Positions 6,649 to 26,021 of a DNA stretch of 40,008 nucleotides are shown piece after piece. The stretch is from a bacterium. Its GTDB lineage: Bacteria; Chloroflexota; Anaerolineae; Epilineales; Epilineaceae. The notes under the pieces were generated by a model that saw only the letters and a program-made list of their open reading frames with translations, was not told the origin of the DNA and made no database searches. The position numbers were made by a program, and so were the translations under genes. The DNA lies in contig QEVT01000007.1 in NCBI GenBank assembly GCA_003576755.1, forward strand, positions 1-40,008. The letters run 5' to 3'. Within the stretch, counting starts at the first letter, position 1; every line of letters begins with the position of its first letter.

Positions 6649-7031
6649 GTTCGGGCCGCCGGATGGGTCGACGGTCGGTGCCGCGACTCGGGGCGGCGGC
6701 GATGTTACCAGACGTGCCAGCCGCTGCCAATCCGGACGCCCATGCGAAGGGGACGACAGCGGACGTGCGGGCAATCGCGGCACCACGAGGCCCAACCGCC
6801 GACCTCCGCGCTGCCCGGTCGTTCGCGATCCCCGCTCGCACGGTGCCTGCGGGTGGACACGACGGCGGACGCGGATCTGATCACGGATGCCGACCCGAGC
6901 ATCGAGCTGCCGGGCGACACGCCGGAGGGCGTGGCGGACCGCGACCACGGCTATCCTTATATACCCCGACGGCTTGGGGTGAGGATGCATGGCCGTGATG
7001 GCGACGACGCCGATCAGGGAGGTCGACAACC
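6649..7031. other. Divergent intergenic region between the cyclase-NACHT and haem-binding genes
   Basis: 383 bases without a gene. The left half holds the minus-strand promoter at 6702-6730. Toward the right is a short A/T-rich stretch (TTATATA near 6957) that could be a -10 for the plus-strand gene, but no -35 stands at a proper distance. It is followed by ACCCC (6963-6967), an eight-base gap and GGGGT (6976-6980), a small inverted repeat that may be an operator or leader hairpin. Confidence 0.5.
6702..6730 (-). promoter_or_regulatory. Predicted promoter of the cyclase-NACHT-FGE gene
   Basis: Minus strand TTGGCA (6730-6725), a 17-base spacer, TAACAT (6707-6702). The predicted start is near 6695, giving a leader of about 47 bases to the ATG at 6648 and supporting that start over the longer open frame. 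Confidence 0.55.
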
Positions 7032-7499
7032 ATGAAGGTTCTGAAGCGCGCGGCCGTCGCGGCCGCGATCGTGTTCGCCGTGATCCAACTGATCCCGGTG
7101 GACCGGACGAACCCGCCGGTGACCCGCGAGGTCCGGTGGAACGCACCGGAGACGCGGGCGCTGGCCCAACGGGCCTGCTTCGACTGCCACAGCAACGAGA
7201 CGGTGTGGCCTTGGACGTCGCGGATCGCGCCGGCGTCGTGGCTCCTGGCCCGCCATGTCGACGAAGGGCGCGGCGAGCTCAACTTCTCGGAGTGGGACCG
7301 GCCCAACGCCGAGGCGGACGAGATCCCCGAATCGGTCACGGACGGCTCGATGCCGACGTGGGACTACATGCTGATGCACGCCGAGGCCAGGCTGACCGAC
7401 GCCGAGCAGGACGCGCTGGCCGCGGGGCTCGCCGAGACGGTGCGTCAGGATCCGCCGATCTCCGACGAAGGCGGAGGCGAGGACGGAGACGACGACTGA
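7032..7499 (+). CDS. Haem-binding domain protein (Haem_bd type, CxxCH)
   Basis: 155 residues. Residues 1-22 form a signal or anchor (KVLKRAAVAAAIVFAVIQLI), so the rest acts outside the membrane. The core CFDCHSNETVWPW carries one c-type haem attachment motif, followed by IAPASWLLARHVDEGRGELNFSEW, the typical pattern of the small haem-binding domain found alone or fused to cytochromes. The tail is acidic (EGGGEDGDDD). AGGGAGG ends about 10 bases before the ATG. Family role: probably an extracytoplasmic mono-haem electron carrier; the partner is unknown. No cytochrome maturation or oxidase genes are nearby. It may be co-transcribed with the downstream kinase-like gene, although a GC-rich hairpin lies between them. 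Confidence 0.85.
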   Translation: MKVLKRAAVAAAIVFAVIQLIPVDRTNPPVTREVRWNAPETRALAQRACFDCHSNETVWPWTSRIAPASWLLARHVDEGRGELNFSEWDRPNAEADEIPESVTDGSMPTWDYMLMHAEARLTDAEQDALAAGLAETVRQDPPISDEGGGEDGDDD

Positions 7500-8881: not shown

Positions 8882-11800
8882 ATGTCCACGCCGACCCGCG
8901 GCCACGCCGCGGAACGACCGCGACCCGGTACCCGTCCATCCCCACGGGTCTTCCATGCCTTCGTCCGCGTGGCGATGCCCACCCGACGTCGCACCTTCCG
9001 CTTCCCCCTCGCCCCGGCGGCGCCGGCCGCCCTGGCCTTCGGCATGGCGTGCCTCGCGATCCTCGGCGCGCTGCTCGCGCTGGCGGCGTCTGACGCCGCC
9101 GCCGTCGCCGCCCGCCCCCTCGCGCCGGTGCCGGGAGACCGCCCGGCGGCGTCGGGGCCGGAGACCGTGGCGCAGGCCCCCTGCGGAATGGCCGTTCAGG
9201 CCTCCGTGGCGAACGGCACGCTGAGCATCGTCGGGACGGACGCAGCCGACCAGATCCGCGTCCGCTTCGACGCCGCCGCCGACACGGTGGACGTCTTCGA
9301 TCCGGCGACGGCGACCACCACGCCCTGGATGTTCGCCGCGGTCGGGCTGCAGAGCATCCACGCCCGGCTGTGCGACGGCGACGACCTGATCGTCTTCGAC
9401 GACTCTGGCGGCGCCCTGGCCAGCCAGTGGTCGATCCATGTCGAAGGCGACGGCGGCGCCGACAAGGTCCTGGGCGGGGTCGACCTCGGCGCGGTGTCGC
9501 TCGGCGACGCCCTGCAGATGCTCGAGACGCTCCGAACGGCCGGCGACCTGATCGACGGCGCGCTCGACCTGCTGGATGCGTCGCCCGGCGCCTGCGCGAC
9601 GGCGCCGTGCCTCGTCGCGGACACGGCCGGGGTGTTGCGCGGCGCGGGCGAAGACCTCGTCCTGCCGGCGGCCGCCTACGTCCGCGACACCGAGCGCAAG
9701 CTGGTGCAGCCGGCGGCCGCAACGGTGCGCGAGGCCCACGGGCGCGTGGGCACGTTCGTCACGACCTTCGTGTCGCAGACCGCCCAGCCGCTCTCGGCCG
9801 ACGCCCAGGCCATGCAGGCCGACGTCGAGCTGGCGGTCGACGACTTCAAGCTCCTTTTGCCGACGGCGCGGGACCTTCTGACCGACACGACGACGCTGTA
9901 CGGGCAGGTCGCGAGCCTCGGCCTCGACGTGCAGAGCCGCGATCCGATCGGCGTGTTCACGCGGACGATCGAGAGCCACACCACGTCCATTGCCGCGCTG
10001 TCGGCCGCGTGCGCGGAGGACCCGGAGCCGGTCGAGACCACCACGGACGAGGACCAGCAGGACCCGTCCGGCCTCTCTCCGGCGTGCGCCGAGCTCGAGC
10101 GGCGCATCGAGGCGCTGGAGTCGATCACCGACGGCGTCGGGGACGACACGCGGCCCGATTCCAGTGCTGCGCAGCTCGATGCAAAGGGCGACGCGTTCGA
10201 GGACAGGGGCGAGACGCTCGAGCTGGCGGGGGACGGCCTGGGCGACGACGAGGTCGCCACGTCCAGGGCATCGCAGATCGAAGCGGACGGCGATGCCCTC
10301 GTCGCCGGCGGGGACCAGGTCGACGCGGCGGCCGAGGCCGTCAACGCCGACTGGGAAGCGTGGGTCGTGCAGTCCGAGACGGATCTCGAGTCGGCCGGCG
10401 CGGGCATGGACAGCCGCGGCCAGACCGAGGTCATGGGCGCGGCCGACGACCTTCGCGCCCGCGCCGGCACCGACGTGGAGGCCGCGGCCGGGCGGCTGCG
10501 CGACCGCGCCGATCAGCTGCGCGCGGATCTCGACGCGCTCATGGCCGCGGCCGCCCCGCTCCTGGGAGCCGGCGGCGCCGAGCTGGCCGGCCAGTCCAGC
10601 ACGTCGTGCAGCATCACCCCCGCGCACACGCTCAGCGGCGCGGCGGGCAGCGACGTGCTGGTCGGCACGGGCGACAGCGACCTGATCGAGGGCGGCGACG
10701 GCGACGACCTGATCGTCGGGGCGGACGGCGGCGACCGGCTGCTGGGCGAGGACGGCAACGACGCGATCTTCGGCGCCGACGGCGGCGACGAGATCAACGG
10801 CGGCGCCAAGACGGACGTGCTGGTCGGCAACGGCGCCGACGACTGCCTCTACGGCGGCGGCGGCCAGACGCTGGCGCGCAACACCCTGTCCGTCGACCTC
10901 GGCGACCTCTTCTTCGGCCTGGGCGGGGGCGACCTCGTCGTCAGCGGCGACGACACGAGCGACCCGCTGACCGAGATCGACCTGGCGTGGGGCGGCGACG
11001 GCGCGGACGAGATGCACCTGAGCCACGGCGGCGACCTGGAGGTGGGCGGCTTCTCGTTCCAGCTGGGGAACCTCGCGTTCGGGGAGGCCGGCGACGACGT
11101 CGTCGAGGCCGCCGACGGCGTCGACGTCGTCTTCGGCGGCACGGGCGGCGACACCATCGGCACGGGCAAGGGTGCCAAGCTGGACATCGGGGACGGCAGC
11201 GGCGTCTCGGTGCTGCGGCTGCCCCTGGGCGACCTGGTCTTCGGCGGGGACGACGGTGACACGGTCGACAGCGACGCCCCGGGCGCCGACCGCGCCGACG
11301 ACGACATCGACGTCGTGTTCGGCGGCGGCGGCAGCGACACGATCCGCGCCTACGGCGGCGGGCCGCTGAGCGTCGGCGACGCCGGCGACCCGGCCTTCGA
11401 GCTCGTGCTCGGCAACCTCGTGCTGGGCGACGCAGGTGAGGACACCATCGTCACGGGCGACGGCATCGACGTCGTCTTCGCCGGCGCCGAGGGCGACACC
11501 GTGCAGGCGGGCAAAGGCGCCGGCCTGGACATCGAAGGCAGCGACGACGCCTCGACCTTCCGGCTCGCGCTCGGCGACCTGGTCTTCGGCCAGGAGGGCG
11601 CCGACACGCTCGACGGCGACGACCCGGCCGCCGACCGCGAAGACGACGACATCGACGTCGTGTTCGGCGGCGGCGAGGACGACACGATCCGCGGCTACGG
11701 CGGCGGGCGTCTGAGCATCGGCGACGAAAGCGACCCGACGTTCGAGCTCGTGCTCGGCAACGTGGTCTTCGGCGGCGACGGCGACGATGCCATCGCCACC

Positions 11801-14800
11801 CAGGACGGCATCGACGTGATCTTCGCGGGCGCAGGCGACGACACCGCCGAGGCGGGCGCGGGCGACACGCTGGAGATCGACGACGCCTTCTCCATCCAGC
11901 TGGGCGACCTGGTCTTCGGCCAGCTCGACGACGACATCCTGCACGGCGACGCCCCGACGGCGGGGACCGGCGCCGGCGACGACGGCATCGACGTCCTCTT
12001 CGGCGGGCCGGGCGACGACAAGCTGTACGGCGGCTCGGGTGGGACCATCAAGCTGCCGGGCCAGGACTTCTGCCTGTTGTGGGGCAACCTCCTGTTCGGC
12101 GGCGCCGGTGGCGACCTCTTGCGCGGCGACTACGAGACGTGGGACAGCAGCGCTCCGCAAGGCGGCATCGACCTGGCCTTCGGCGGCCCTGGCGGCGACA
12201 CCATCGAGGGCGCCGGCGGCTCGCTGGTCGTCATCGGCGACATCACGTCGCTGCAGGCGGTCGTCATCTGGTTCGGCAACCTGTTGTTCGGCGGCGCGGA
12301 CGACGACACCATCCGCGGCGCCGACGCGGCCGATCTGGGCGGCTGCGTGAACGCCGAGCTCGCCGGGTTCCTGAGCGACGCCGGCGTGACCGGTCTCGGC
12401 GGCGCCGCCGACCTGATCCTGGCCGGCGGCGGCTACGACACCGTCGACGCCTACGACGGCATCGACTTCGTGTTTGGCGCCACCGGCGACGACACGCTCC
12501 GCGCCGACGACGGCGGGATCGTCGTCGTGCCGATCGACGGGATCCCGGTGCCGATCGCCTTCGGCAACCTCATGTTCGGCGGCGAGGGCGAGGACACCAT
12601 CCGGAGCAAGGGGCGCCTGGGGGTGGCGGCGGTGCCGCCGCTGGAGATCGACGTCTTGTTCGGCGGTCCGTGCGACGACGGCATCTTCGCCGGCGACGGC
12701 TTCAACGTCGCCTTCGGCAACCGCGGGAGCGACACGATCGTCGCCGACGACGGCGTGAACCTGCTCTTCGGCAACGCCCACGACGACGTCATCTCCGCCG
12801 GCAGCGGCCTGAGCGTCGCCTTGGGCAACCTGGGCGACGACGTGATCTCCGGCGGCGCCGACGCGCTCGGGATCTACGTGCTCCTCGGCAACCGCGACAA
12901 GGACGACATCACCGGCGGCGACGGGCTGACGGTCGCATTCGGCAACCGCGGCGACGACGCCGTCCGGGGCGGCGTCGGCGTCGGCATCCTCTTCGGGAAC
13001 GGCGGCCACGACGACATCGACGGCGGCGACGGGCTGACGGTCGCGTTCGGCAACCGCGGCGACGACACCGTCGGCGCCGGGAACGGCGTGGCCGTGCTCC
13101 TGGGCAACCAGGGCGCCGACGACGTGCAGTGCGCCGACGTTCTGTGCGTGGCCCTCGGCAACCTCGATCCCGATCTGGTCAGCGCCGGGGGCATCGGCCT
13201 GAGCGCCCTGTTCGGCAACGCCGGCGAGGACCGGGTGACGACCGGCACGGGCCTCGGCGTGGCGTTCGGCAACGACGGCGACGACATCGTCCGGGCCGGC
13301 GGCGGTGGGGCGCTCTTCGCCCTCGGCAACGGCGGCGACGACGTGATCGTCGGCGGCCCGGGCGTCAACGTCGCCTTCGGGAACACGGGGAACGACCAGT
13401 ACTTCTCTGGCGGGGGGGCGAACCTCGTGTTTGGCAATGCCGGCGACGACACGACCCGCGGCGGCCCGGGCAGCGACCTCTTGTTCGGCAACAGCGGCCT
13501 CGACACGCTCGTCGGCGGCCACGGCGGCCCCGACGTCCTGTTCGGCAACCGCGACGGCGACACGCTCGGCACCAACGACGGGGACGACCTCGCGTTCGGC
13601 AACCGCGGCGGCGACCACGTCTACGCGTCCGACGCCGGCGGGTGCGACCTCCTGTTCGGCAACCGCGGCATCGACACGCTCGAAGAATGCCAGAGCTGCG
13701 ACCTCCGCTTCGGCGGCCGCGGCGGCGACGACAAGCCAGCGAGCTGCACGATGCTCTCGCCCGCCGCGCCGAGCCGCGGCGAGGTCCGCGGCACGGTGCG
13801 GCTGGACCTGAACGGCGACTCGGCCGGCGACGTCGGCCAGCCGAACGTCACCGTGAAGGCCGGTTCGCAGAGCGCCGTGACGGACGCGGACGGCCGGTAT
13901 CGGATCACCGGGCTGGCCGCGAACACGGCGTACAGCGTCGTGGAGGTCGTCCCGGCCGGCTTCGCCCAACTGTCGCCGCCGACCGCCCACGCCGTCGCCG
14001 TCGGCGGCCAGGGCATCGACCTCTTCCCGGGCCGCGACTTCGTGAACCGGCCTCGCTGCGCGGTGGCGGCCGACGGCTGGGGATGCGTCTCGGCGGAATG
14101 CGAGCCGGGCGGTGCCGCACCCGTGCCGGCGTGCCGGCCCGTGGCCGTGCGGCGGGTCATGCGCTGCGTCCAGACCGGGAAGGTCTGCGGAAGCGATGCC
14201 GACTGCCCGTGCCTGGACTGCGAGCCCTCGTGGGAGGTCGTGTCGTGCGCCTGCGTGGCATCCGACGCGAGCTGCACCCTCACGCTCGACCCGAAGACGG
14301 GACCGCGCTGCGGCGGCATCTGCCCGGGGCGTCCCGGGGGGCCGTGCCAACTGCAGGCCGTCGGCGACGTCTACCGTTGCGGCTGTCCGGTCTTGGGCAG
14401 CATGATCTACCTGCCGGCCGTCGGCGTCTCCGCCGTGTCCGGCCCGGTCGGACCGACTCAGACCAGCACGCCCTCGCGGACGGCGACGCGGCGGGTCACG
14501 GCATCGCCGACGCAGACAGCGACGCCGCGGGTCACCCTGGCGGCGACGAACCCGCCGCCGACTTCGCGGCCGATGGTGCGCCCGACCGTCGCACCGGCCC
14601 CGTCGCCGACTGTCACCGCGCGCCCGTCGTCGACGGTCAGGCCGACGGGCTCCCCCTCGCCGCGGCCGACGGGGACACCCCGCCCGGCGGGCGGGGTCGG
14701 AGTGGTGCAGCGGTCGGCGAGCGCCGGGCCGGGCGCGCGGCCGCAAGCAGTGCCGATGACGCTCGCGACCGTCGCGCTGGACGGCTCGTGGACGGTCCTG

Positions 14801-15937
14801 GACGAGCTGATGGGCGGCGGCGCGTTCTACGCGCCGCTGTTCGCCTACACGTCGACCGTCCCGGTGCGGATCGACGTGACCGACCTGTTCGTCGTATCGG
14901 ACCGCAACGAGGTCTACCTCGACGGCCAGCTCGTCGGGTCGACGCCGCCGGTCGCCGACTGGACCGCGCTCGGCGGCGGTCCCCAGGACCCGCCGTACAC
15001 CGCCGATCCCGCCGCGGCCTGGTCCGACGCCGCGTTCAGCAAGGCGTCGTTCATGCTGCCCGCCGGGTCGCACGTGCTGACGCTGCGCAACACGCACATC
15101 CCGCCCAAGGCCGACGGCTCGCCCTACCCGGACGGCACGGTGGCGTTCCGCTTGACCACGCTCAAGGACCCGACCCCGACGGCCACGCCGGAGGGAGAGC
15201 CCCCGACGGTCACGCCCGAGGGCCCGACCCCGACGGCCACGCCCGGCTGCGCGCCGCGCCCGGCGGGCATGGTCGCCTGGTGGACGCTGGACGAGGAGGG
15301 CGGCGCGGTGGCGCTGGACAGCGCCGGCGGCCACGACGGCGCCGTCGAGGGGGCGGCGGCGGTCGTCCCGGCCAAGGTGGCGGCGGGGCGGCACTTCGAC
15401 GGCGGCCTGGTGCGGGTGGCGGATGCGCCCGCGCTGGACGGCGGCGACGCGGGGCTGAGCGTGGATGCCTGGATCCGGCCGGCGGGGATCGACGGCCTGC
15501 AGCCGATCGTGACGAAGCGGTTCGCGCCCGCCGACGCGCCGATGGGCTGGTCGCTCCACCTGGCCGACGGGCGGCTGGGCTTCACCTGGAGCCACGCGTC
15601 GAGCAGCCTCGACGCCGTCGCGCCGGATCGCCTGAGCGCCGGCGAATGGCACCTGGTGGCCGTGACCGTCCGCCGCGGGTCGCCCGACGGCGGGAAGCTG
15701 TACGTCGACGGCGCGCTGGTCCACACGTTCGACACGACGCCGCTGGCCGGGGCCGTGGACACCGACGCCCTCTTGCACGTCGCCTTGCAGCCCGCCCTTG
15801 GCCGCGGGCAGCCGGCGCGCGGCTTCGTCGGTGCCATCGACGAGGTCGAGCTGTTCGACCGGCCGATCTCCGGCGACGACATCCGCGCCATCTACGCGGC
15901 CGACCGGTTCGGCAAGTGCGACAAGCCGCGCCGGTGA
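8882..15937 (+). CDS. Giant secreted RTX-like calcium-binding protein with LamG-like C-terminus
   Basis: 2351 residues; AAAGGAG about 9 bases before the ATG. A long basic N-region (about 40 residues) precedes a hydrophobic segment (42-70), a signal peptide or anchor. Then come a beta-rich domain (about 100-240), an Ala/Asp/Glu-rich helical stretch (about 245-570), a long RTX region (about 585-1620) with GGxGxD motifs that starts conventionally (LIEGGDGDDLIVGADGG) and changes into long modules and then [FL]GN units, and an SdrD_B-like domain (GEVRGTVRLDLNGD, about 1630-1720). After these come a segment with 17 Cys (about 1720-1840), the motif MIYLPAVGV, a Thr/Pro linker (about 1860-1940), a beta-sandwich domain, a second short linker and a LamG/concanavalin-like domain (WWTLDEEGG to the end). 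RTX repeats bind calcium and fold outside the cell; LamG folds often bind sugars. Likely a surface or released adhesin. No type I secretion genes are in the window. Confidence 0.9.
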   Translation: MSTPTRGHAAERPRPGTRPSPRVFHAFVRVAMPTRRRTFRFPLAPAAPAALAFGMACLAILGALLALAASDAAAVAARPLAPVPGDRPAASGPETVAQAPCGMAVQASVANGTLSIVGTDAADQIRVRFDAAADTVDVFDPATATTTPWMFAAVGLQSIHARLCDGDDLIVFDDSGGALASQWSIHVEGDGGADKVLGGVDLGAVSLGDALQMLETLRTAGDLIDGALDLLDASPGACATAPCLVADTAGVLRGAGEDLVLPAAAYVRDTERKLVQPAAATVREAHGRVGTFVTTFVSQTAQPLSADAQAMQADVELAVDDFKLLLPTARDLLTDTTTLYGQVASLGLDVQSRDPIGVFTRTIESHTTSIAALSAACAEDPEPVETTTDEDQQDPSGLSPACAELERRIEALESITDGVGDDTRPDSSAAQLDAKGDAFEDRGETLELAGDGLGDDEVATSRASQIEADGDALVAGGDQVDAAAEAVNADWEAWVVQSETDLESAGAGMDSRGQTEVMGAADDLRARAGTDVEAAAGRLRDRADQLRADLDALMAAAAPLLGAGGAELAGQSSTSCSITPAHTLSGAAGSDVLVGTGDSDLIEGGDGDDLIVGADGGDRLLGEDGNDAIFGADGGDEINGGAKTDVLVGNGADDCLYGGGGQTLARNTLSVDLGDLFFGLGGGDLVVSGDDTSDPLTEIDLAWGGDGADEMHLSHGGDLEVGGFSFQLGNLAFGEAGDDVVEAADGVDVVFGGTGGDTIGTGKGAKLDIGDGSGVSVLRLPLGDLVFGGDDGDTVDSDAPGADRADDDIDVVFGGGGSDTIRAYGGGPLSVGDAGDPAFELVLGNLVLGDAGEDTIVTGDGIDVVFAGAEGDTVQAGKGAGLDIEGSDDASTFRLALGDLVFGQEGADTLDGDDPAADREDDDIDVVFGGGEDDTIRGYGGGRLSIGDESDPTFELVLGNVVFGGDGDDAIATQDGIDVIFAGAGDDTAEAGAGDTLEIDDAFSIQLGDLVFGQLDDDILHGDAPTAGTGAGDDGIDVLFGGPGDDKLYGGSGGTIKLPGQDFCLLWGNLLFGGAGGDLLRGDYETWDSSAPQGGIDLAFGGPGGDTIEGAGGSLVVIGDITSLQAVVIWFGNLLFGGADDDTIRGADAADLGGCVNAELAGFLSDAGVTGLGGAADLILAGGGYDTVDAYDGIDFVFGATGDDTLRADDGGIVVVPIDGIPVPIAFGNLMFGGEGEDTIRSKGRLGVAAVPPLEIDVLFGGPCDDGIFAGDGFNVAFGNRGSDTIVADDGVNLLFGNAHDDVISAGSGLSVALGNLGDDVISGGADALGIYVLLGNRDKDDITGGDGLTVAFGNRGDDAVRGGVGVGILFGNGGHDDIDGGDGLTVAFGNRGDDTVGAGNGVAVLLGNQGADDVQCADVLCVALGNLDPDLVSAGGIGLSALFGNAGEDRVTTGTGLGVAFGNDGDDIVRAGGGGALFALGNGGDDVIVGGPGVNVAFGNTGNDQYFSGGGANLVFGNAGDDTTRGGPGSDLLFGNSGLDTLVGGHGGPDVLFGNRDGDTLGTNDGDDLAFGNRGGDHVYASDAGGCDLLFGNRGIDTLEECQSCDLRFGGRGGDDKPASCTMLSPAAPSRGEVRGTVRLDLNGDSAGDVGQPNVTVKAGSQSAVTDADGRYRITGLAANTAYSVVEVVPAGFAQLSPPTAHAVAVGGQGIDLFPGRDFVNRPRCAVAADGWGCVSAECEPGGAAPVPACRPVAVRRVMRCVQTGKVCGSDADCPCLDCEPSWEVVSCACVASDASCTLTLDPKTGPRCGGICPGRPGGPCQLQAVGDVYRCGCPVLGSMIYLPAVGVSAVSGPVGPTQTSTPSRTATRRVTASPTQTATPRVTLAATNPPPTSRPMVRPTVAPAPSPTVTARPSSTVRPTGSPSPRPTGTPRPAGGVGVVQRSASAGPGARPQAVPMTLATVALDGSWTVLDELMGGGAFYAPLFAYTSTVPVRIDVTDLFVVSDRNEVYLDGQLVGSTPPVADWTALGGGPQDPPYTADPAAAWSDAAFSKASFMLPAGSHVLTLRNTHIPPKADGSPYPDGTVAFRLTTLKDPTPTATPEGEPPTVTPEGPTPTATPGCAPRPAGMVAWWTLDEEGGAVALDSAGGHDGAVEGAAAVVPAKVAAGRHFDGGLVRVADAPALDGGDAGLSVDAWIRPAGIDGLQPIVTKRFAPADAPMGWSLHLADGRLGFTWSHASSSLDAVAPDRLSAGEWHLVAVTVRRGSPDGGKLYVDGALVHTFDTTPLAGAVDTDALLHVALQPALGRGQPARGFVGAIDEVELFDRPISGDDIRAIYAADRFGKCDKPRR
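11123..12169 (+). repeat. Tandem 345-bp modules in the RTX region
   Basis: Copies start at 11123, 11468 and 11813, exactly 345 bases (115 codons) apart, each opening with DV[VI]F[AG]G. A third, more divergent copy runs to about 12169 (357 bases). Each module contains two beta-rich pieces (LGDLVFG and FELVLGN[LV]V) between RTX turns, longer than classical nonapeptides. Confidence 0.75.
12710..13710 (+). repeat. Eighteen-unit [FL]GN variant RTX array
   Basis: Eighteen units of about 18-20 residues with core (A/L/V)(F/L)GNxGxDxxxxG. Each pairs an 'FGNxGDD' half with a 'GGxGLxV' half, so one of every two calcium-binding turns has FGN in place of GG. In the first eleven units the residue before [FL]GN alternates strictly Ala, Leu, Ala, Leu, suggesting a two-unit structural period. 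Confidence 0.8.
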
Positions 15938-18200: not shown

Positions 18201-19745
18201 TCACCCCCCGCCCGGCCGACCTTCCGGGAACAGCTGATAGCCCCCCTCCGGCCGCCCCCGCCACGTGCCCAGGTAGCGCGGCGCCGACGGCTGCGGCTCG
18301 ATCTTGCGCCGCAGCTCCTTGACCACCTGGTAGAGCGCGTCGTCCATCACCCCTTCGCCCACCGCCTCGTCCGGCCACACCGCCTCGATCACCGCCGTCT
18401 TGGTGTGCCGCACGCGCGGGTGCTCGAGCAGGAACTCCAAGAGCCGGCGCTCGAGGTTCGCCAGGCCCCCCAGCGGTGCCTGGCCCTGGTACAGCTCGCC
18501 CGTCGACGCGTCGCGCCACAGCTTGCCGCGCCCCTGGATCGCCGCCCCCGCGCCCTCGACATGCGCCGCGAGGAGCGACCCCACGACGTGCCAGTCGCCG
18601 CCGTCCTCCCCCCGCGCCGCGAGCCCCCGCCCCGCCAGCCGCGACAGCGCCGCCGCGTGCTGGTCGGCCAGGTCGTGCCGCGCCTTGGCGATCAGCCGCT
18701 CGACCGCCGCCGGGTCCGCGCCGCCCTGCGCCCGCAGCCGCTCGACCCGCCCGCGCAGCCGCTGCACCTCCGTCAATGCCAGCAGCTCGGCCTGGGTGAG
18801 GCCCTCCACGATCTCCGCCAGCCGAAACCCGATGGACGGCTCCGCCAGAAGCGCCGCCCGCCATGCGTCGCCGCCCGCCGGTTCGTGCCCGGCGCCCGCC
18901 GCGCCGACCGCGGTGGCGGCGCCGGGCACGACATCGGCGCCCGCTGCCGGCCGCCCCCGCGACCACCAGTGGCACGCCGACTTGAGCAGCGCCGGGTAGC
19001 CGCCCGTCAACGCCAGCAGGCGCCCGACGTCTTCCTCGGACGCCGGCGCCGCTGCGTGCGCCGTCTCCTCGGCGATCACCCGGCGTGCGTCGGCATCGAC
19101 GAGCGGGCCGATCCAGCACACGTGCGTGTCGAGGATCTCGTATAGCTCGCCCAGGATGCCCGGGTCGTCGAGGTAGGCGACCTCCTGGCGCAGGCCCACG
19201 ACGTACGACAGCCGCCCCTTGCACGCGTCGCGCAGGCCGCGCAGCGTGTCGGTCAGCTCCGGCGAGGCCGTTTCGCAGAACCGGTCGAAGCGGTCCAACA
19301 CCAGCACGATCGGCGTGCCGCGCGCCAGGAAGGCGAACAAGGCCTCGCGCAGCGCCGTCTGCGCGACGAACGGGTCCGTCGTGGCGCGGTTCTCGCGGAA
19401 GAGGGTCGCGATCACCGGGCCGAGCGCCGGGTCCAGCCCGTCGCGGCGCTCGTGGAACGCCCGCAAGAGCACCCGGTAGAATGTGGCCGTGTCGCCCGCC
19501 GGCAAGTCGTTGAGGTCGACCATCACCACCGCCGGCGGCGCGAGGTCGGCCGGCCAGTGCGCGCCCAGCGCTTCGGGCTGCGCGCACAGGAAGCGCAGGA
19601 AGTTCGACTTGCCGGCGCCGCCCATCCCGATGACCGCGCCGCTCGTCCCCTCGACGATCCAGCGCGCCACGATGCCCGCCTCGCGCGCGCGGTAGGTCGC
19701 GGGGTAGCCCGACCGTCGATCGCCGGCTGTCAGCGTCGTCTCCAT
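18201..19745 (-). CDS. P-loop ATPase with C-terminal OmpR/PhoB-type winged helix
   Basis: 514 residues. An N-terminal NTPase domain has Walker A GMGGAGKS (40-47) and Walker B IVLVLDRFD (146-154, Asp151), followed by LSYVVGLRQEVAYL, a STAND/ORC-like arrangement. The middle is Ala/Gly-rich. The last 100 or so residues read LERRLLEFLLEHP, TAVIEAVWPDE, DDALYQVVKELRRKIEP and GRPEGGYQLFPEG, the pattern of a response-regulator-type DNA-binding winged helix. No receiver domain is present, so ATP binding rather than phosphorylation would gate it. Last gene of the minus-strand operon: the methyltransferase TGA overlaps its GAGGTGAGG ribosome site and lies five bases before this ATG. Likely a cytoplasmic transcription regulator; it may act on its own promoter at 21376-21430. 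Confidence 0.85.
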   Translation of the reverse strand: METTLTAGDRRSGYPATYRAREAGIVARWIVEGTSGAVIGMGGAGKSNFLRFLCAQPEALGAHWPADLAPPAVVMVDLNDLPAGDTATFYRVLLRAFHERRDGLDPALGPVIATLFRENRATTDPFVAQTALREALFAFLARGTPIVLVLDRFDRFCETASPELTDTLRGLRDACKGRLSYVVGLRQEVAYLDDPGILGELYEILDTHVCWIGPLVDADARRVIAEETAHAAAPASEEDVGRLLALTGGYPALLKSACHWWSRGRPAAGADVVPGAATAVGAAGAGHEPAGGDAWRAALLAEPSIGFRLAEIVEGLTQAELLALTEVQRLRGRVERLRAQGGADPAAVERLIAKARHDLADQHAAALSRLAGRGLAARGEDGGDWHVVGSLLAAHVEGAGAAIQGRGKLWRDASTGELYQGQAPLGGLANLERRLLEFLLEHPRVRHTKTAVIEAVWPDEAVGEGVMDDALYQVVKELRRKIEPQPSAPRYLGTWRGRPEGGYQLFPEGRPGGG

Positions 19746-19750
19746 GTGCC

Positions 19751-20554
19751 TCACCTCGTCGCCCGCATGCATCCCGTCGGCCCGGCGGCGATTGTACCAC
19801 CGCGCCGGTCCGGGCGCTGCCGCCCCGCGCCCGCGCCGCCCAGCGGCCGGCGGGCGACGACGAGGTCGCTGTAGCCCCGGAAGCACGTCTCGACGCGCTC
19901 GACCTCGAAGTCGGCGGCCTCGACCGCCGCGCGGAACGCCTCCGGGGAGTGCGTCCAGTACGTCCCGTCGAGCTGGGCGCGGCGGATCCGGCGGTTCTGG
20001 CGCCAGGTCTCGCGACCCCGCCAGAACACCCGCGCCGCGCCAACCGGGCCCACCGTCCGCACCAGGTGGCCGGCGAGGAAGCGCGACCACTCCCACACAT
20101 CCACCGGCCGCCCGGGATCGCACAGGAACGCCCGGCCGCCCGGCGCCAGCCACGCGTGCAGCCGCGCCAGCGCGGCCGGCGGGTCCGGGAACGTGTAGAG
20201 GGCGTGCACGCACGACACCGCCGCGGCCGAGCCGGGCGCGACGTCGGCATCGTCGACGCCGCGCGCCGCGATGCGCACGTTGCCGAGCCCGGCCGCCCGG
20301 GCCTTGCGCGCGGCGACCGCGTTCATGCCCGGGTCGGGCTCGACGTGGACCACCGGGTGGTCCGGGAAGGCCCGCGCCCAGCCCAGCGAGAAGACGCCCG
20401 TCCCGGCGCCGACGTCGACGATCGGCCGCCCGGACGGCAGCGACCAGCCGCGCACCTCGGCCTCGAAGCGGGCGACGAGGTCCTGGTAGGCCGGGTTGTA
20501 GGCCTGGATCATGTCGTACACCGCGGCGTACGAGCTCCAATCGGTGGCTTGCAT
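19751..20554 (-). CDS. Class I SAM-dependent methyltransferase
   Basis: 267 residues. YAAVYDMIQAYNPAY opens the fold, motif I is PIVDVGAGTGVFSLGW (about 45-60), the acidic strand-2 end is VVHVEPDPGMNAVAA, the motif II/III region is RGVDDADVAPGSAAAV, and post-motif ALARLHAWLAPGGRAFL completes the Rossmann-type fold. The substrate is unknown; the family methylates many small molecules. ATG at 20554 has GGAGGG about 7 bases upstream. It lies 67 bases after the acyltransferase gene and five bases before the ATPase gene, so the three form one transcription unit. That context suggests, but does not prove, that it modifies the product of the upstream acyltransferase. The C-terminal 30 residues are Arg/Gly-rich and may be unstructured. 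Confidence 0.9.
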   Translation of the reverse strand: MQATDWSSYAAVYDMIQAYNPAYQDLVARFEAEVRGWSLPSGRPIVDVGAGTGVFSLGWARAFPDHPVVHVEPDPGMNAVAARKARAAGLGNVRIAARGVDDADVAPGSAAAVSCVHALYTFPDPPAALARLHAWLAPGGRAFLCDPGRPVDVWEWSRFLAGHLVRTVGPVGAARVFWRGRETWRQNRRIRRAQLDGTYWTHSPEAFRAAVEAADFEVERVETCFRGYSDLVVARRPLGGAGAGRQRPDRRGGTIAAGPTGCMRATR

Positions 20555-20621: not shown

Positions 20622-21311
20622 TCACGCCGCGTAGCGCCCCGCTTCGTCGCGGTCGATCGCGAGCCGCGGCTCGGCCGCGCACATCGCGGCGAAGTCACGG
20701 AACGGCAGCCCGCACAGGACGCCGAGGTCGCGCACGCCGGGATACGGCTTCGGGTCGGACAACGGCTGCATCCCGAACAGCCGCCGGTAGATCGCCACGT
20801 GCTTGCGCCGCATGGCGGTGATCACCCAGTCCGCCTCGTGGACCACGGCGTTGGCGGCGATCATCCGGAACAGCCGGAACTGGGTGTCGAGCATGACGTC
20901 GAACGACGTCTCGGCCGTCACGAAGCGCGAGGGCTCGACGATGCGCCGGTCGAAGCCGATCCGCAACGCGATCTCGTCGCGGTAGCTCTCGAACGACGGC
21001 AGGCCGATGCCGCGCTCGGGGATGTAGACGCCGGCACGTATGGCGCCGATCGGCTCGTCGCCGTCCATCAGCAGGTACGTCATCGCGTTCGGCTCGTCGC
21101 CGTCCATCAGCAGGTACGTCATCGCGTTCGGCTTGTAGTCGTAGGGGTCGCGGAACCGTTGCGACCCGTTCTCGGGGATGGAGTCGGTGGCGCGATACGC
21201 CCGGTAGCGCAGCTTGAACGCCGCGTCGCGCAGCGCGGGCGTCGCCGCCCGGACGACGGTGGCGGTCGCGGGCAGCGGCTTGACGAGGGTGGGCGTGGCC
21301 GATTGCAGCAT
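20622..21311 (-). CDS. LuxI/FeeM-type N-acyltransferase-like protein (GNAT superfamily)
   Basis: 229 residues. The pattern AAFKLRYRAYRATDSIP, DPYDYKPNAMTYLLMDGD, IGAIRAGVYI and EPSRFVTAE (about 126-134), followed by LFRMIAANAVVHEADWVITAM and YRRLFGMQPL, matches the acyl-homoserine-lactone synthase / N-acyl amino acid synthase group of acyltransferases, which join an acyl chain to an amino compound. Residues 62-87 are a perfect tandem duplication of a 13-residue strand. The ATG at 21311 has AGGAG about 10 bases upstream; the longer open frame continues over the promoter. First gene of an operon with a methyltransferase and an ATPase/winged-helix regulator. Substrate and activity are unproven, and a plain GNAT acetyltransferase remains possible. 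Confidence 0.7.
   Translation of the reverse strand: MLQSATPTLVKPLPATATVVRAATPALRDAAFKLRYRAYRATDSIPENGSQRFRDPYDYKPNAMTYLLMDGDEPNAMTYLLMDGDEPIGAIRAGVYIPERGIGLPSFESYRDEIALRIGFDRRIVEPSRFVTAETSFDVMLDTQFRLFRMIAANAVVHEADWVITAMRRKHVAIYRRLFGMQPLSDPKPYPGVRDLGVLCGLPFRDFAAMCAAEPRLAIDRDEAGRYAA
21052..21129. repeat. Perfect 39-bp tandem duplication inside the acyltransferase gene
   Basis: Bases 21052-21090 and 21091-21129 are identical. The duplication is 13 codons, keeps frame and repeats the peptide NAMTYLLMDGDEP. Identity at every third position means it is very recent or an assembly error. Confidence 0.95.
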
Positions 21312-21375
21312 GGAGGTCGATCTCCTGTCAATCGCGGGTCGGTCGGTGTCGTGCGCTCGAGCCCGACATGGCGCC

Positions 21376-21404
21376 AGCATACGCCGGGGGCGGCGGCGAG
21401 TCCT
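21376..21404 (-). promoter_or_regulatory. Candidate promoter of the acyltransferase-methyltransferase-ATPase operon
   Basis: Minus strand AGGACT (21404-21399), a 17-base spacer and TATGCT (21381-21376). The -35 is poor, as in activator-dependent promoters. The predicted start is near 21369, giving a leader of about 58 bases. Confidence 0.35.
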
Positions 21405-21430
21405 GAGGCCGCCCTGAGGCCGCCCTGAGG
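21402..21430 (-). promoter_or_regulatory. Three 7-bp direct repeats spaced 11 bp apart, touching the -35
   Basis: CCTCAGG on the minus strand (CCTGAGG on plus) at 21402-21408, 21413-21419 and 21424-21430, joined by GCGG spacers on the minus strand. PhoB/OmpR-type winged helices bind direct repeats about 11 bp apart beside weak -35 elements, and the operon encodes such a winged helix. A slippage-generated 11-bp tandem repeat is the alternative. Confidence 0.45.
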
Positions 21431-21583: not shown

Positions 21584-22378
21584 ATGCTTCCCAAGCGCTT
21601 CCCGGCCATGGCCGGGATCACCCGAGCGCTCTTCGGCGCCCTCACCGCGCTCGCCGCGCTGGCCGACACGGCCGGCGCCCAACCGCCGCCGACCAACGGC
21701 ACCCGCTGGCCGACCTACGAGGTGTGCTACCGGGTCGACAGCACCGCCGCCGGCTACGCCCTCCAGATCGACCAGGCCGCCGCCACCTGGACCGCCGCCA
21801 GCACCAACGGCTTCAAGTTCGTCAAGGCGGCCAACGGCACGCCTTGCCAGAACGCCTTCTACGAGGGCTTCATCGATGGCCTCAAGGGCTGGTACGGGTA
21901 TACCATCATCGACACCGACGTCGGCCAGGCCGGCTGTGTGCCGTTCGTGGGCTGCACCGACCCGACGCCGGGCGCGACCATCCTCGCCGCCTACTCGGTC
22001 CTGGAGTCGCGCCAGTGCTCCGAGAACCAGAAGGGCTGCATCTGCCAGACCCAGCCGGCGGCCGAGGCGGACTTCCACGACCCGCTGGGCTGCCACCTCG
22101 TCACGCTGCCGGCGGGCCACTGCGGTCCGGGCGGGATCCCCAACACCGTCATGACCACTTCCGGGCTGCGCTGGGACACGCCGGGCGTCTACGAGACCGC
22201 TCTCCACGAGCTCGGGCACTGGCTGTGGATGGGCGACACGTTCATCGCCCTGCCGGCACAGCGGGACTCGGCCCTCGACTGGCTGTTTCCGCAGCGCTGT
22301 ACCGATCCGGGCATGGCGCCGGACTTCTACACGCTGTTCGGCGTCGACATCGCCGAGCTCAACCAGCTCTATCCGTGA
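21584..22378 (+). CDS. Secreted matrixin-like zinc metalloprotease
   Basis: 264 residues. Signal peptide about 1-32 (ITRALFGALTALAALADTAGAQ). The zinc motif HELGHWLWMGD (His208, Glu209, His212) lies near the C-terminus, followed about 40 residues later by GVDIAELNQLYP, like the tail of M10-type metalloproteases. The third metal ligand would be Asp218 in place of His, and the Gly usual at motif position 8 is Trp. Numerous Cys (including RQCSENQKGCICQTQ) suggest disulfides in an extracellular fold. GGAGAA lies about 10 bases before ATG 21584; the frame is open further upstream, but a signal peptide beginning at this ATG fits better. The next gene starts 11 bases after the stop, so they are co-transcribed. 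Likely digests extracellular protein; the target is unknown. Confidence 0.75.
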   Translation: MLPKRFPAMAGITRALFGALTALAALADTAGAQPPPTNGTRWPTYEVCYRVDSTAAGYALQIDQAAATWTAASTNGFKFVKAANGTPCQNAFYEGFIDGLKGWYGYTIIDTDVGQAGCVPFVGCTDPTPGATILAAYSVLESRQCSENQKGCICQTQPAAEADFHDPLGCHLVTLPAGHCGPGGIPNTVMTTSGLRWDTPGVYETALHELGHWLWMGDTFIALPAQRDSALDWLFPQRCTDPGMAPDFYTLFGVDIAELNQLYP

Positions 22379-22389
22379 GGAGAACGACG

Positions 22390-23124
22390 ATGCGGTACCG
22401 CGCGATCGCGCAAGTGGCGGCGGGGGCGTTGGCGGTGGTGGCCGTGGCGGGTTTCGGTTCGGGCCGGCCGACGCGCTCGGGCGACGGCGACGGGAACGCG
22501 GGGACGGGGTCGGCGGCGCCTTCGGGCGTCGCCGCCACCTTCCAGTATGCGTTCGTCGAGGAGGGCGACGTGATCGAGGCGGCCGACGCCGTCATCCGCG
22601 GCACGATCCTTGCCGTGTCGGAGCCGCGTTGGAACCAGACGAGCGGGGAGCGCTGGTCGATGGACGCCGATCGGCCCAAGTCGGTGGCGCACCCGCCGGC
22701 GGCGTTCATGTTGCAGACCGTCGACCTGGCCGTCGCCGAGGTCTGGCGGGGCCGGGACGTCCAACCGGGCGACCGTGTCGCCTTCGACGTCCTCGGCAAC
22801 GGGATCGGCGCGGCGTGGAACAAGGAGGGCGCGTTCCTCGCGCCCGGCACCGAGGTCGTCGTGCTCCTCGACCGCCGGTCGATCGGTTGGCGCGACGGGC
22901 CTGGCGGGCGCAAGGAAGTCCTGACCTTGAGCGGTGCCTACCAGGGCGTGTACCGTGTCGAGGTCGGAGGTGGCTTGACCAACGCCAGCACGGCGCGCTT
23001 GAAAGGCGCGCGCGACCGGGCATCGTCGAGCGGGGACGCTGCCGCGCAGACCTCGGGCGCGGTCTCACGGTCCGGCACGGTGGCGGCGCTGAAGGCGCGT
23101 GTGCTACGGCAGGCGGGTGGCTGA
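22390..23124 (+). CDS. Secreted beta-rich protein of unknown function
   Basis: 244 residues. An N-terminal signal (MRYRAIAQVAAGALAVVAVAG) has no lipobox Cys, so the protein is probably released or loosely anchored. The middle resembles a recurrent extracytoplasmic beta-domain: ADAVIRGTILAVSEPRW, VDLAVAEVWRGRDVQPGDRV, LAPGTEVVVLLDRR and GAYQGVYRVE. I know this pattern only as an uncharacterised secreted domain. GAGGAGAA stands 7 bases before the ATG. It lies between the metalloprotease and the vWA protein in one plus-strand unit; the association may mean a substrate, inhibitor or chaperone of the protease, but nothing in the sequence shows which. Confidence 0.7.
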   Translation: MRYRAIAQVAAGALAVVAVAGFGSGRPTRSGDGDGNAGTGSAAPSGVAATFQYAFVEEGDVIEAADAVIRGTILAVSEPRWNQTSGERWSMDADRPKSVAHPPAAFMLQTVDLAVAEVWRGRDVQPGDRVAFDVLGNGIGAAWNKEGAFLAPGTEVVVLLDRRSIGWRDGPGGRKEVLTLSGAYQGVYRVEVGGGLTNASTARLKGARDRASSSGDAAAQTSGAVSRSGTVAALKARVLRQAGG

Positions 23125-23177
23125 GCCATCGGGCGCCGGCGCGCGGGAGCAGTGGCATTCCGAAAGCGAGGGTGGTG

Positions 23178-26021
23178 ATGGGTACTCGGACATCCGTCCG
23201 TGGATTGATGCCGGCAGTCGCGCCGGGTGTGGCCCTCGCGGCCGCCGTCCTCGCGGCCGGCGCCGCGGGCACGGCAGGACGGGGCGCCACGGTGGCCGCC
23301 GCCGGCCCCGCGCTGCCGGAGCACTACGCGTGGCAGACGACGTGGGCTCCCGGATCAACGGGGTTGCGACACCCGCTCGACGTGTCGACGGCAGCCGACG
23401 GGCGGGTGGTCGTCTTCGACGCCGAGGGCGAGCGCGTGGTGGGCCTCGCCGCCGACGGACGCCGGCTCGGGGTCTGGACCGACCCCGAGCCGGCGGACGA
23501 CGGCATGTGGGAGGACGACGGCCCGATCGCGGCGGTCGGCACCGCCGATGGCGGCCTGATCGTGCTCCGGCGCCCTTCGCGCATCCTGCCCGACGGCGTG
23601 CGGCAGCTGCGTGAGATCGTCCGCCATGACGCGACGGGCGCCCTGCGATGGGGCGCCGGTCGTCTCAGCCCCGACGTGACGCTCGACCCGCTGCATCCCG
23701 ACCGCACGTGGTCCGACCGCCTGGCCCTGGCCCGCGGGGGTGACCGGGTGTTCGTGCTGGATCGCGGCGGCCCGCGCGTCTACGCCAAGGCGGCCGAGTC
23801 GGGTGCCGGGCTCGGCAGCGAGAACCTGCCGCCCGCCGAGACCCGTCGGCTGGTCGACGCGTTCGACTGGTATGTCGATCTCGACGTGCTGCCGGATGGC
23901 CGGCTCGCCTTGCTCAACCAGGCACGGTCGGAGCTGCTGCTCTTGCGTTCGGGATGGAGCGCGCCCGGTGCGGCGGCGACGCGGCGGGTGGCGCTGGAAG
24001 GGCGCCCGCGGCGCATCGCGGCCGACGCCGCGGGCGGCGTGTTCGTGCTGGATGCCGACGGCACGGTCCGCAAGCTGGCCGCCGACGGCCGCCTGCGCGC
24101 CCGATGGGACGCCCGTGGACCCGCGCCGACCGCGCGGACCACCGTTGCCGACATCGCCGTCCAGGCGGATGGCGCCGTCCTGGCGGCCGACGCGCACAGC
24201 GGGGCCATCCACCGGTTCGTGCCGGATGCGTCCGGCGCGCCGGCGGCGGACGCATCCGGATGCCGGCTCGCCCCCGGCAAGACCGCCGCGCCGAACCAGG
24301 TGCGACTCGGCGCGGCGGTGACGGTCACGCTGGCCGTGCATGGCGACTGCCCGCGCCGCGAGGGCGCCGACATCGCGCTCGTCGTCGCCCGGGGCAGCGG
24401 CGACGGGGCGGCGTCGGACGAGCTCGACGCCGCCGTCCCGTTTGCGCGGGCGTTCGTCCAGCAGGCCGACCTGGGGCGACATCGCATCGCCGTCATCAGC
24501 CATCAGCTCGCCTTCACACCCACCGTCGACGCGCCGTTGTCCGCGGATCGGACCGTGCTGCTCGATGCGGTGGACGCGCTCCGGCCGGCCCGCGACGCCG
24601 ACTTGCTCGGGCCGCGCCACCGCGTCTACGCCCGGGCACAGGCCGTGTTGGACGGGCCGGGCGGCCGTGACGAGGCGCGCAAGGTGATCGTCGCGCTGGC
24701 GACGCCCGGCCAGCCGGGCGTGTCCGTGATGGATGCCTTGCGCACCCGCGCGCTGGGCACGCGGGTCATCGCCCTGCAGGGGCTGCCCGACGCGGTGGTG
24801 CGGCGACTGCGGCGGCAGTCGACCTTCTGGTTTGACGAGGCGATGCTGTGGCCGCGCTTCCTGGCGTCCGACTGGTGGGACTGCCATTGCGCGGCCGGCG
24901 TGACGGCCGAAGCCGCCGCGGAGGTGCACGCGGCCATCGCCGCGGATGCCCCGGTGTGGCGCGCGACGGCGCTGGCGTCGACGCTCGTCGTCACCGATCG
25001 GCTGCCCGCCGACATGGCCTACGTCGAGGGGTCCGCGGTGCCTCCGGCGGGCTGGGAGCCCGCCACGCGCACGCTGACGTGGCGGCTCGCGGGGGTCCCG
25101 CTCGACGGCACGACGCTGGCCTTTCGGGTCGTCCCGACGCTGGCCGGCCACCGCCCGACCAACGTCGACGCCCGCGCTGCCTACACCGACGGCCTGGGGG
25201 TGGCCGGCGCGCTGGTCTTCCCGCTCCCGTTCGTCGACGTGCTGGCGCCGACGCCGACGGCATCGCCGACCGCCACGCGCCCCCCGACCGCGACGCCCAC
25301 GCCTTTCCCGACCACGACGCCGTTTCCCACCGCCCTCCCCTCCCCGACGGCCACCGACCGGCCAACGCCGATCCGCCACACGGCGTGGCTACCGATTGCG
25401 CTCCTGGATCGCTGTGTGCCGGAGGCGGCGCGCGCCGACATCGCGCTGGTCCTCGACCTGTCGAGCAGCATGCGCGAGGCGGCGGGCCCGGCGCCCGGCG
25501 CCACCAAGCTCGACGCCGCCCGCCGGGCCGCGGTGGTGTTCCTGGACCTGGTGCGCCTCGATCGCGGCGACCAGGTGGCCGTGATCGGCTTCAACAGCAC
25601 GGCCCGCGTGATCCAGGCGCTGACCGGCGATCGGTCGGCGCTCGAGCGATCGCTGGCGACGCTGGACACCGCCGCGCAGACCCGGATCGACCTCGGGATC
25701 GCGGCCGGCGCGCAGGCGCTCGACGGCCCGCTGCACCGGCCGGGGCACGATCGGGTGATGATCGTGCTGACCGACGGGCGCGCCAACCCCGTCGGCCCCG
25801 AGGCGGCCGTTGCGGAAGCGGCAACGGCCAAGCGGCACGGCATCCGGATCTTCACCATCGGGCTGGGCGACGATCTGGACACCGAGGCGCTGGCGCGCAT
25901 CGCGGATCGGCCCGACCACTTCTTCCAGACGGCCGACGCCGACCGGCTGGCGGCCATCTACGCCGCCATCGCCCGGCGCATCCCGTGCCCGGCGACGCCG
26001 CTGGAGAACGGCATGCGCTGA
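23178..26021 (+). CDS. Secreted beta-propeller / DUF11-like / von Willebrand A surface protein
   Basis: 947 residues. Signal peptide about 1-33 (GVALAAAVLAAGAAGTAG). Residues about 45-360 are NHL-like strands (DGRVVVFDAEGERVVGL, GGVFVLDADGTVRKLAADG), a probable beta-propeller. Residues about 395-560 look like a vWA domain with a lost metal site (DIALVVARGSGDG where DxSxS is expected). A DUF11-like beta-sandwich follows (LVVTDRLPADMAYVEGS), then a Thr/Pro linker (about 685-730) and the motif AWLPIALLDRC. The C-terminal vWA domain is intact: DLSSS (Asp760), a Thr near 835 and LTDGRAN (Asp866), a complete MIDAS. vWA domains bind protein ligands through a metal ion. ATG at 23178 has GAGGG just upstream; GTG at 23172 and 23175 are alternatives. 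Third gene of the metalloprotease unit. Confidence 0.85.
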   Translation: MGTRTSVRGLMPAVAPGVALAAAVLAAGAAGTAGRGATVAAAGPALPEHYAWQTTWAPGSTGLRHPLDVSTAADGRVVVFDAEGERVVGLAADGRRLGVWTDPEPADDGMWEDDGPIAAVGTADGGLIVLRRPSRILPDGVRQLREIVRHDATGALRWGAGRLSPDVTLDPLHPDRTWSDRLALARGGDRVFVLDRGGPRVYAKAAESGAGLGSENLPPAETRRLVDAFDWYVDLDVLPDGRLALLNQARSELLLLRSGWSAPGAAATRRVALEGRPRRIAADAAGGVFVLDADGTVRKLAADGRLRARWDARGPAPTARTTVADIAVQADGAVLAADAHSGAIHRFVPDASGAPAADASGCRLAPGKTAAPNQVRLGAAVTVTLAVHGDCPRREGADIALVVARGSGDGAASDELDAAVPFARAFVQQADLGRHRIAVISHQLAFTPTVDAPLSADRTVLLDAVDALRPARDADLLGPRHRVYARAQAVLDGPGGRDEARKVIVALATPGQPGVSVMDALRTRALGTRVIALQGLPDAVVRRLRRQSTFWFDEAMLWPRFLASDWWDCHCAAGVTAEAAAEVHAAIAADAPVWRATALASTLVVTDRLPADMAYVEGSAVPPAGWEPATRTLTWRLAGVPLDGTTLAFRVVPTLAGHRPTNVDARAAYTDGLGVAGALVFPLPFVDVLAPTPTASPTATRPPTATPTPFPTTTPFPTALPSPTATDRPTPIRHTAWLPIALLDRCVPEAARADIALVLDLSSSMREAAGPAPGATKLDAARRAAVVFLDLVRLDRGDQVAVIGFNSTARVIQALTGDRSALERSLATLDTAAQTRIDLGIAAGAQALDGPLHRPGHDRVMIVLTDGRANPVGPEAAVAEAATAKRHGIRIFTIGLGDDLDTEALARIADRPDHFFQTADADRLAAIYAAIARRIPCPATPLENGMR

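Follow-up and report, generated by a model that had tools for sequence, protein, structure and literature searches.

A predicted FeeM-type acyltransferase-methyltransferase gene pair and a putative 11-bp repeat operator of a winged-helix ATPase family

Organization of the locus

The window, by which we mean the whole stretch of 40,008 nucleotides analyzed, is contig 438 of a fragmented 4.4-Mb draft assembly (489 contigs, 82% complete). On its minus strand lie three genes encoding a predicted acyltransferase (AT), a methyltransferase (MT) and a P-loop ATPase, all with reading frames open without internal stops (Table 1). The gaps are 67 bases between AT and MT and 5 bases between MT and the ATPase gene, in agreement with the initial annotation, which had described three coupled genes. 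Next to the repeats upstream of AT is a divergent gene whose translation has a single N-terminal hydrophobic segment and for which a Pfam search gave no significant match. Twenty bases separate the hexamer TATGCT from the nearest repeat, and the sequence here can be read, weakly, as a promoter of the AT operon. An Rfam search of the window returned no RNA family. Large proteins are encoded on both flanks of the operon (8882-15937 and 22629-26021), one with RTX calcium-binding repeats and a Laminin_G_3 domain, the other with a von Willebrand A domain.

Table 1. Features of the AT operon and its upstream region, in window coordinates.
Feature	Position	Strand	Basis
AT, predicted FeeM-type N-acyl amino acid synthase, operon gene 1 (229 aa)	20622..21311	-	Pfam FeeM; AlphaFold2 model
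MT, class I SAM-dependent methyltransferase (267 aa), paired with AT	19751..20554	-	Methyltransf_23; FeeM neighbours of relatives
P-loop ATPase with C-terminal OmpR/PhoB-type winged helix (514 aa), candidate regulator	18201..19745	-	Trans_reg_C, weak AAA
39-bp tandem duplication inside AT (13 residues, in frame)	21050..21133	-	Copies 100% identical
Three CCTGAGG direct repeats, 11-bp spacing, candidate ATPase-family operator	21402..21430	no strand	Repeat scans, homologue comparison
Possible -10 hexamer TATGCT for AT operon (weak)	21376..21381	-	Sequence reading
Divergent gene next to shared repeat region, secreted-looking, HELGH motif, possible metalloprotease	21584..22378	+	Translation

AT is a predicted FeeM-type N-acyl amino acid synthase

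AT matches the Pfam FeeM profile (PF21926) with an E-value of 1.6e-28 and 99.9 bits (cut-off 27). FeeM is also matched by 15 of the 15 cassette ATs that were aligned. The AlphaFold2 model of AT (pLDDT 81.6) has FeeM (2g0b) as its top match by both Foldseek and VIA-align (Z 18.9, rmsd 2.4, 172 residues aligned), with LasI behind it at Z 16.2. In the profile and fold comparisons AT aligns best with FeeM and next with LuxI-type synthases rather than with ordinary acetyltransferases, which upholds the earlier assignment of AT as a LuxI/FeeM-like N-acyltransferase. The Autoinducer synthase profile (PF00765) gave no match to AT at E up to 1, and some of the other cassette ATs match it weakly. Together these comparisons argue strongly that AT is a FeeM-type N-acyl amino acid synthase, with the activity predicted from sequence and model. 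In Pfam family and predicted fold AT resembles the N-acyl amino acid synthases FeeM, TyzA and NasY. Its fold is also related to that of the LuxI-type AHL synthases, but FeeM matches better, and the LuxR partner of LuxI systems has no counterpart among the window neighbours examined.

As a query, AT gave no match in the genome scan and found only the window among 396 genomes of the class. The AT of a sister genome matches FeeM and yet yields no BLASTP alignment with the window AT. Because AT diverges too fast, MT was used as the tracer in its place.

AT and MT form a conserved pair

MT matches Methyltransf_23 (1.5e-17) and is 49% identical to the MT beside the FeeM-type gene in the sister genome. 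With MT as tracer we found an adjoining FeeM-type gene in Chloroflexota, Alphaproteobacteria, Deinococcota and Bacteroidota. Only four of 72,556 plasmid records contain an MT relative at 1e-8 (three Sulfitobacter, one Deinococcus), and a FeeM homologue adjoins MT in 4/4. In a scan of ~85,000 species genomes with a five-sequence MT alignment, all 16 good loci have an adjoining FeeM-type gene (16/16): the sister Ardenticatenales genome, one Saprospiraceae and fourteen Rhodobacterales, the last including Roseovarius tolerans, R. confluentis, R. atlanticus, Loktanella, Salipiger, Shimia and Wenxinia. One locus with a weak MT match of 97 residues (L109) was excluded. The cassette is rare: samples of the family and the genus of R. 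tolerans contained MT in 6/296 and 7/79 genomes, respectively, with AT adjacent in every carrier found and examined. After removal of overlaps between the searches the pair is conserved at about 30 loci, so that the coupling of acyltransferase and methyltransferase proposed in the initial annotation holds well beyond the window; the one exception is an MT paralogue. The order is AT-MT in the window, Saprospiraceae and Deinococcus, and MT-AT in the sister genome and the roseobacters. One roseobacter-family genome has an uninterrupted MT-AT frame of 499 residues (L142:1501-3000), either a natural fusion or the product of a lost stop codon. Judged from gene order and sequence, AT and MT are a real two-enzyme cassette.

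The exception lies in the window's own genome, where contig 158 carries a second MT copy, 47% identical, with no recognisable FeeM neighbour; the 407-aa gene upstream of it has no Pfam or PDB match. About 3.4 kb from this copy (L156:1473-2500) is a beta-eliminating lyase gene (5885-7321) of the kind seen in the sister-genome cluster. On one of the Sulfitobacter plasmids (L088:2746-4907) an IS256-family transposase gene splits MT, and AT and a kinase gene remain.

The third partner of the pair varies

In roseobacters the usual companion of the pair is a membrane sensor histidine kinase that belongs to a single orthologous group, is found across many genera and comes after the pair in most loci. 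A simple scan gives three to five hydrophobic segments in the N-terminal half of this kinase, which is conserved to the same degree as the kinase half. Downstream of the pair in the sister genome are genes for KASIII and a subtilase, a ThiF/beta-eliminating-lyase frame and a response regulator-kinase pair; in Deinococcus the AT-MT pair has a desaturase before it and another methyltransferase after it. No histidine kinase gene stands next to the pair in the window; the winged-helix ATPase gene takes that place, and we saw the ATPase as a partner only there. The suggestion that the three window genes form a set kept together in other genomes was thus not sustained: elsewhere the pair is joined by a histidine kinase, a KASIII/ThiF set or a second methyltransferase, and the ATPase homologues of the class adjoin other genes. 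We rejected the three-gene unit because its third gene lies outside the cassette in other genomes. The roseobacter kinase and the window ATPase do suggest that such a cassette often has a sensor or regulator gene linked to it at the same locus.

A plasmid of Loktanella salsilacus (L090:2694-6127) combines a homologous kinase with an ICMT-like carboxyl methyltransferase and a FeeM/LuxI-like gene, and it is possible that MT was replaced there by an unrelated carboxyl methyltransferase. The FeeM/LuxI-like gene of this plasmid is annotated as an AHL synthase.

CTGAG repeats recur upstream of ATPase homologues

The ATPase has a Trans_reg_C domain at residues 428-498 of 514 (7.2e-11, 42.5 bits, cut-off 26.2) and weak AAA matches at its N-terminal end. 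Homologues, mostly distant, occur in 336/396 genomes of the class, where they adjoin unrelated genes, many of them encoding STAND or kinase-type signalling proteins; viral contigs scanned with the ATPase gave no match.

CCTGAGG, which reads CCTCAGG on the minus strand, is present in three perfect copies with starts at 21402, 21413 and 21424, exactly 11 bp apart as first described. In the 40-kb window, at spacings of 8 to 22, a tripled 7-mer occurs only in this array. A 7-mer tripled at 11 bp was found in 1% of 200 first-order random windows, and 0/1000 shuffles of the promoter region reached the array score. Perfect CCTSAGG-N4-CCTSAGG occurs in the 4.4-Mb assembly only at this array. An OmpR/PhoB-type DNA-binding domain (Trans_reg_C) and direct repeats about 11 bp apart at the promoter are both present in the window.

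For 31 ATPase homologues, the upstream sequence (up to 300 bases) was scored for all tetramers at periods of 7 to 20. CTGA at period 11 ranked first of the 256 tetramers, and 13/31 homologues scored at least 10 of 12 for it, as compared to 0.7 expected; for this tetramer other periods and shuffles fell far below. Typically CCTGAG is followed by CTGA at 11-bp steps, in some cases with four copies, and the good arrays lie 11 to 256 bases upstream of the homologue gene. In homologue loci totalling 184 kb, three CTGAG units in a row (at most three mismatches) lie mostly immediately upstream of the ATPase gene. A score of 10 of 12 or more is reached only where the homologue has at least 35% identity to the window ATPase. 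Repeats of 11-bp spacing are found, as CTGAG arrays, before ATPase homologues of other genera, and this recurrence indicates that they are probably the operator of the winged-helix ATPase family. The sister-genome MT-AT pair has no conserved repeats upstream (138/1000 shuffles were as good).

The window array matches this motif perfectly; it stands upstream of AT, the operon's first gene, and not directly upstream of the ATPase gene. Its sense is opposite to that at most homologues, with two other loci (L083, L020) likewise reversed. The array has the usual sense when followed in the direction of the divergent gene at 21584, and for this reason the repeats may also serve that gene. The recurrence of the motif gives moderate support to autoregulation through the repeats.

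We considered whether the repeats are private to this operon and rejected it, since other near-perfect arrays are present in the same assembly. Those with at most one mismatch are near genes for a multicopper oxidase, cohesin and reprolysin proteins, a Clp-like ATPase and others, so that a wider regulon is possible. Outside the window, CTGAG arrays of 11-bp period in this genome are at L131:3230-3267, L132:114-151, L133:5027-5064, L134:360-397 and L135:4659-4685; their neighbours encode a cohesin protein and PPK2, a multicopper oxidase, a lectin-like protein, a Clp-like ATPase and a reprolysin-like protein.

A possible link to N-acyl amino acid methyl esters

Methyl esters of N-acyl alanine, N-acyl glycine and other N-acyl amino acids (NAMEs) are native compounds of Roseovarius and Loktanella strains (PMC6296433). 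Strain EL-164 of R. tolerans, a marine species, is a NAME producer for which synthase genes were not identified (PMC11580390, PMC6296433). We found two MT-AT copies in R. tolerans DSM 11457, which is not the producer strain EL-164. The correlation of cassette and NAMEs rests on this one species, and the genus prevalence of ~9% is the probability of a chance co-occurrence. The L. salsilacus plasmid with its ICMT-like carboxyl methyltransferase points to the same kind of product. Acylation and carboxyl methylation, the two activities predicted for the cassette, are the chemistry that NAMEs need, and the cassette occurs in R. tolerans and in a Loktanella. In the papers we found, NAMEs are known as compounds only, and our search of the open literature, with subscription papers and preprints outside its scope, found no assigned NAME genes. 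A 2024 paper reported no candidates; candidate genes for NAME biosynthesis can now be named, together with a candidate receptor gene beside them in the roseobacter kinase, and they allow NAME production and signalling to be tested by deletion.

We favor, with some reserve, a model in which AT and MT make a NAME-type molecule and the ATPase family, by recognising CTGAG direct repeats at 11-bp spacing, controls its own operon. AT would take a long acyl chain from acyl-ACP or acyl-CoA and attach it to an amino acid at the amino group, both chain and amino acid being inferred. The pairing of the genes argues strongly that MT would then methylate the acylated product, most likely at its free carboxyl group, an acceptor that we propose with moderate confidence, to give an N-acyl amino acid methyl ester. 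The ATPase might bind the repeats before AT, and perhaps also control the divergent gene for the secreted-looking protein. That the ATPase senses the product is speculative, and the window is at most a candidate for a closed signalling circuit. At the level of sequence, an operator is hereby proposed for a widespread and uncharacterised family of winged-helix ATPases.

Of the alternatives, the one that fares best, though we regard it as doubtful, is that the ATPase gene lies downstream of the pair by chance and that the repeats are its operator, with inputs and targets unrelated to the AT-MT product. The unrelated, often STAND or kinase-type neighbours of its homologues and the other CTGAG arrays near unrelated genes would fit such independence; a separation from MT by just 5 bases and an array ahead of the operon's first gene, not ahead of the ATPase gene, do not.

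It is unlikely, but a matter for serious weighing, that the product is a membrane lipid, surfactant or antimicrobial instead of a signal, with the regulator answering stress or ATP state. Antimicrobial and antialgal activity is known for NAMEs, and they have no action on AHL receptors (PMC6296433, PMC11580390); the pairs in Deinococcus and the sister genome are flanked by other lipid-enzyme genes, with no fixed sensor. Against this, one orthologous kinase group accompanies the roseobacter pair across many genera, with its N-terminal half conserved.

We consider it less likely again that MT methylates another group, such as a hydroxyl or an amine, or acts before acylation, so that the end product is not a NAME. 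The nearest fold to the MT model is the tRNA-modification methyltransferase CmoA (Z 23.5), and for that reason the fold leaves the substrate unfixed; the profile and fold matches are generic (CmoA, UbiE/UbiG, Coq5), and known N-acyl tyrosine pathways include C- or O-methylation of the ring (PMC12479983). However, CysG/BelI, which methylate a C1 carboxyl group (PMC11408123), are among the nearest folds with a close score (Z 21), the cassette is present in a NAME-producing species, and the Loktanella plasmid with the homologous kinase has its ICMT-like carboxyl methyltransferase beside the AT-like gene.

An AT that is inactive or misassembled owing to the 39-bp duplication is improbable: the perfect repeat is missing from 14/14 aligned homologues and the assembly is a fragmented draft, but the duplication is in frame, its residues fall in a low-confidence loop between two strands of the AlphaFold2 model, and the fold and conserved family residues are kept.

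Relation to known systems

Known pathways combine ThiF with N-acyl amino acid synthases (PMC10404671, PMC12479983), and the tyrazolone and stieleriacine pathways have a ThiF neighbour, as does the pair in the sister genome. The window differs from FeeM-type pathways in that its synthase has a dedicated methyltransferase as constant partner, with neither ThiF nor nitroreductase present. In the PhcB/PhcS quorum sensing of Ralstonia, the methyltransferase PhcB makes a lipid methyl ester that is sensed by the histidine kinase PhcS (PMC8578825). This is the same scheme that we propose for the roseobacter cassettes, but the Phc signals are hydroxy-fatty-acid methyl esters without an amino acid, and the window has no kinase.

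The ATPase shares with AfsR, a STAND protein of the SARP type, a nucleotide-binding module, an OmpR-type winged helix and direct repeats 11 bp apart; AfsR binds such repeats at its targets, and ATP binding relieves its inhibition (PMC10936776). The window ATPase may work in a like manner. It differs from AfsR in domain order, with the winged helix at the C-terminus and no BTA or TPR domain found; the SARP architecture of an N-terminal winged helix followed by BTA is absent, and the protein is not a SARP. Several ATPase homologues (L073:7424-10011, L065:2329-5108) have as neighbours a TPR gene and a gene of the HTH or sigma-like plus NB-ARC type; the arrangement looks like an AfsR-like regulator whose modules are distributed among adjacent genes.
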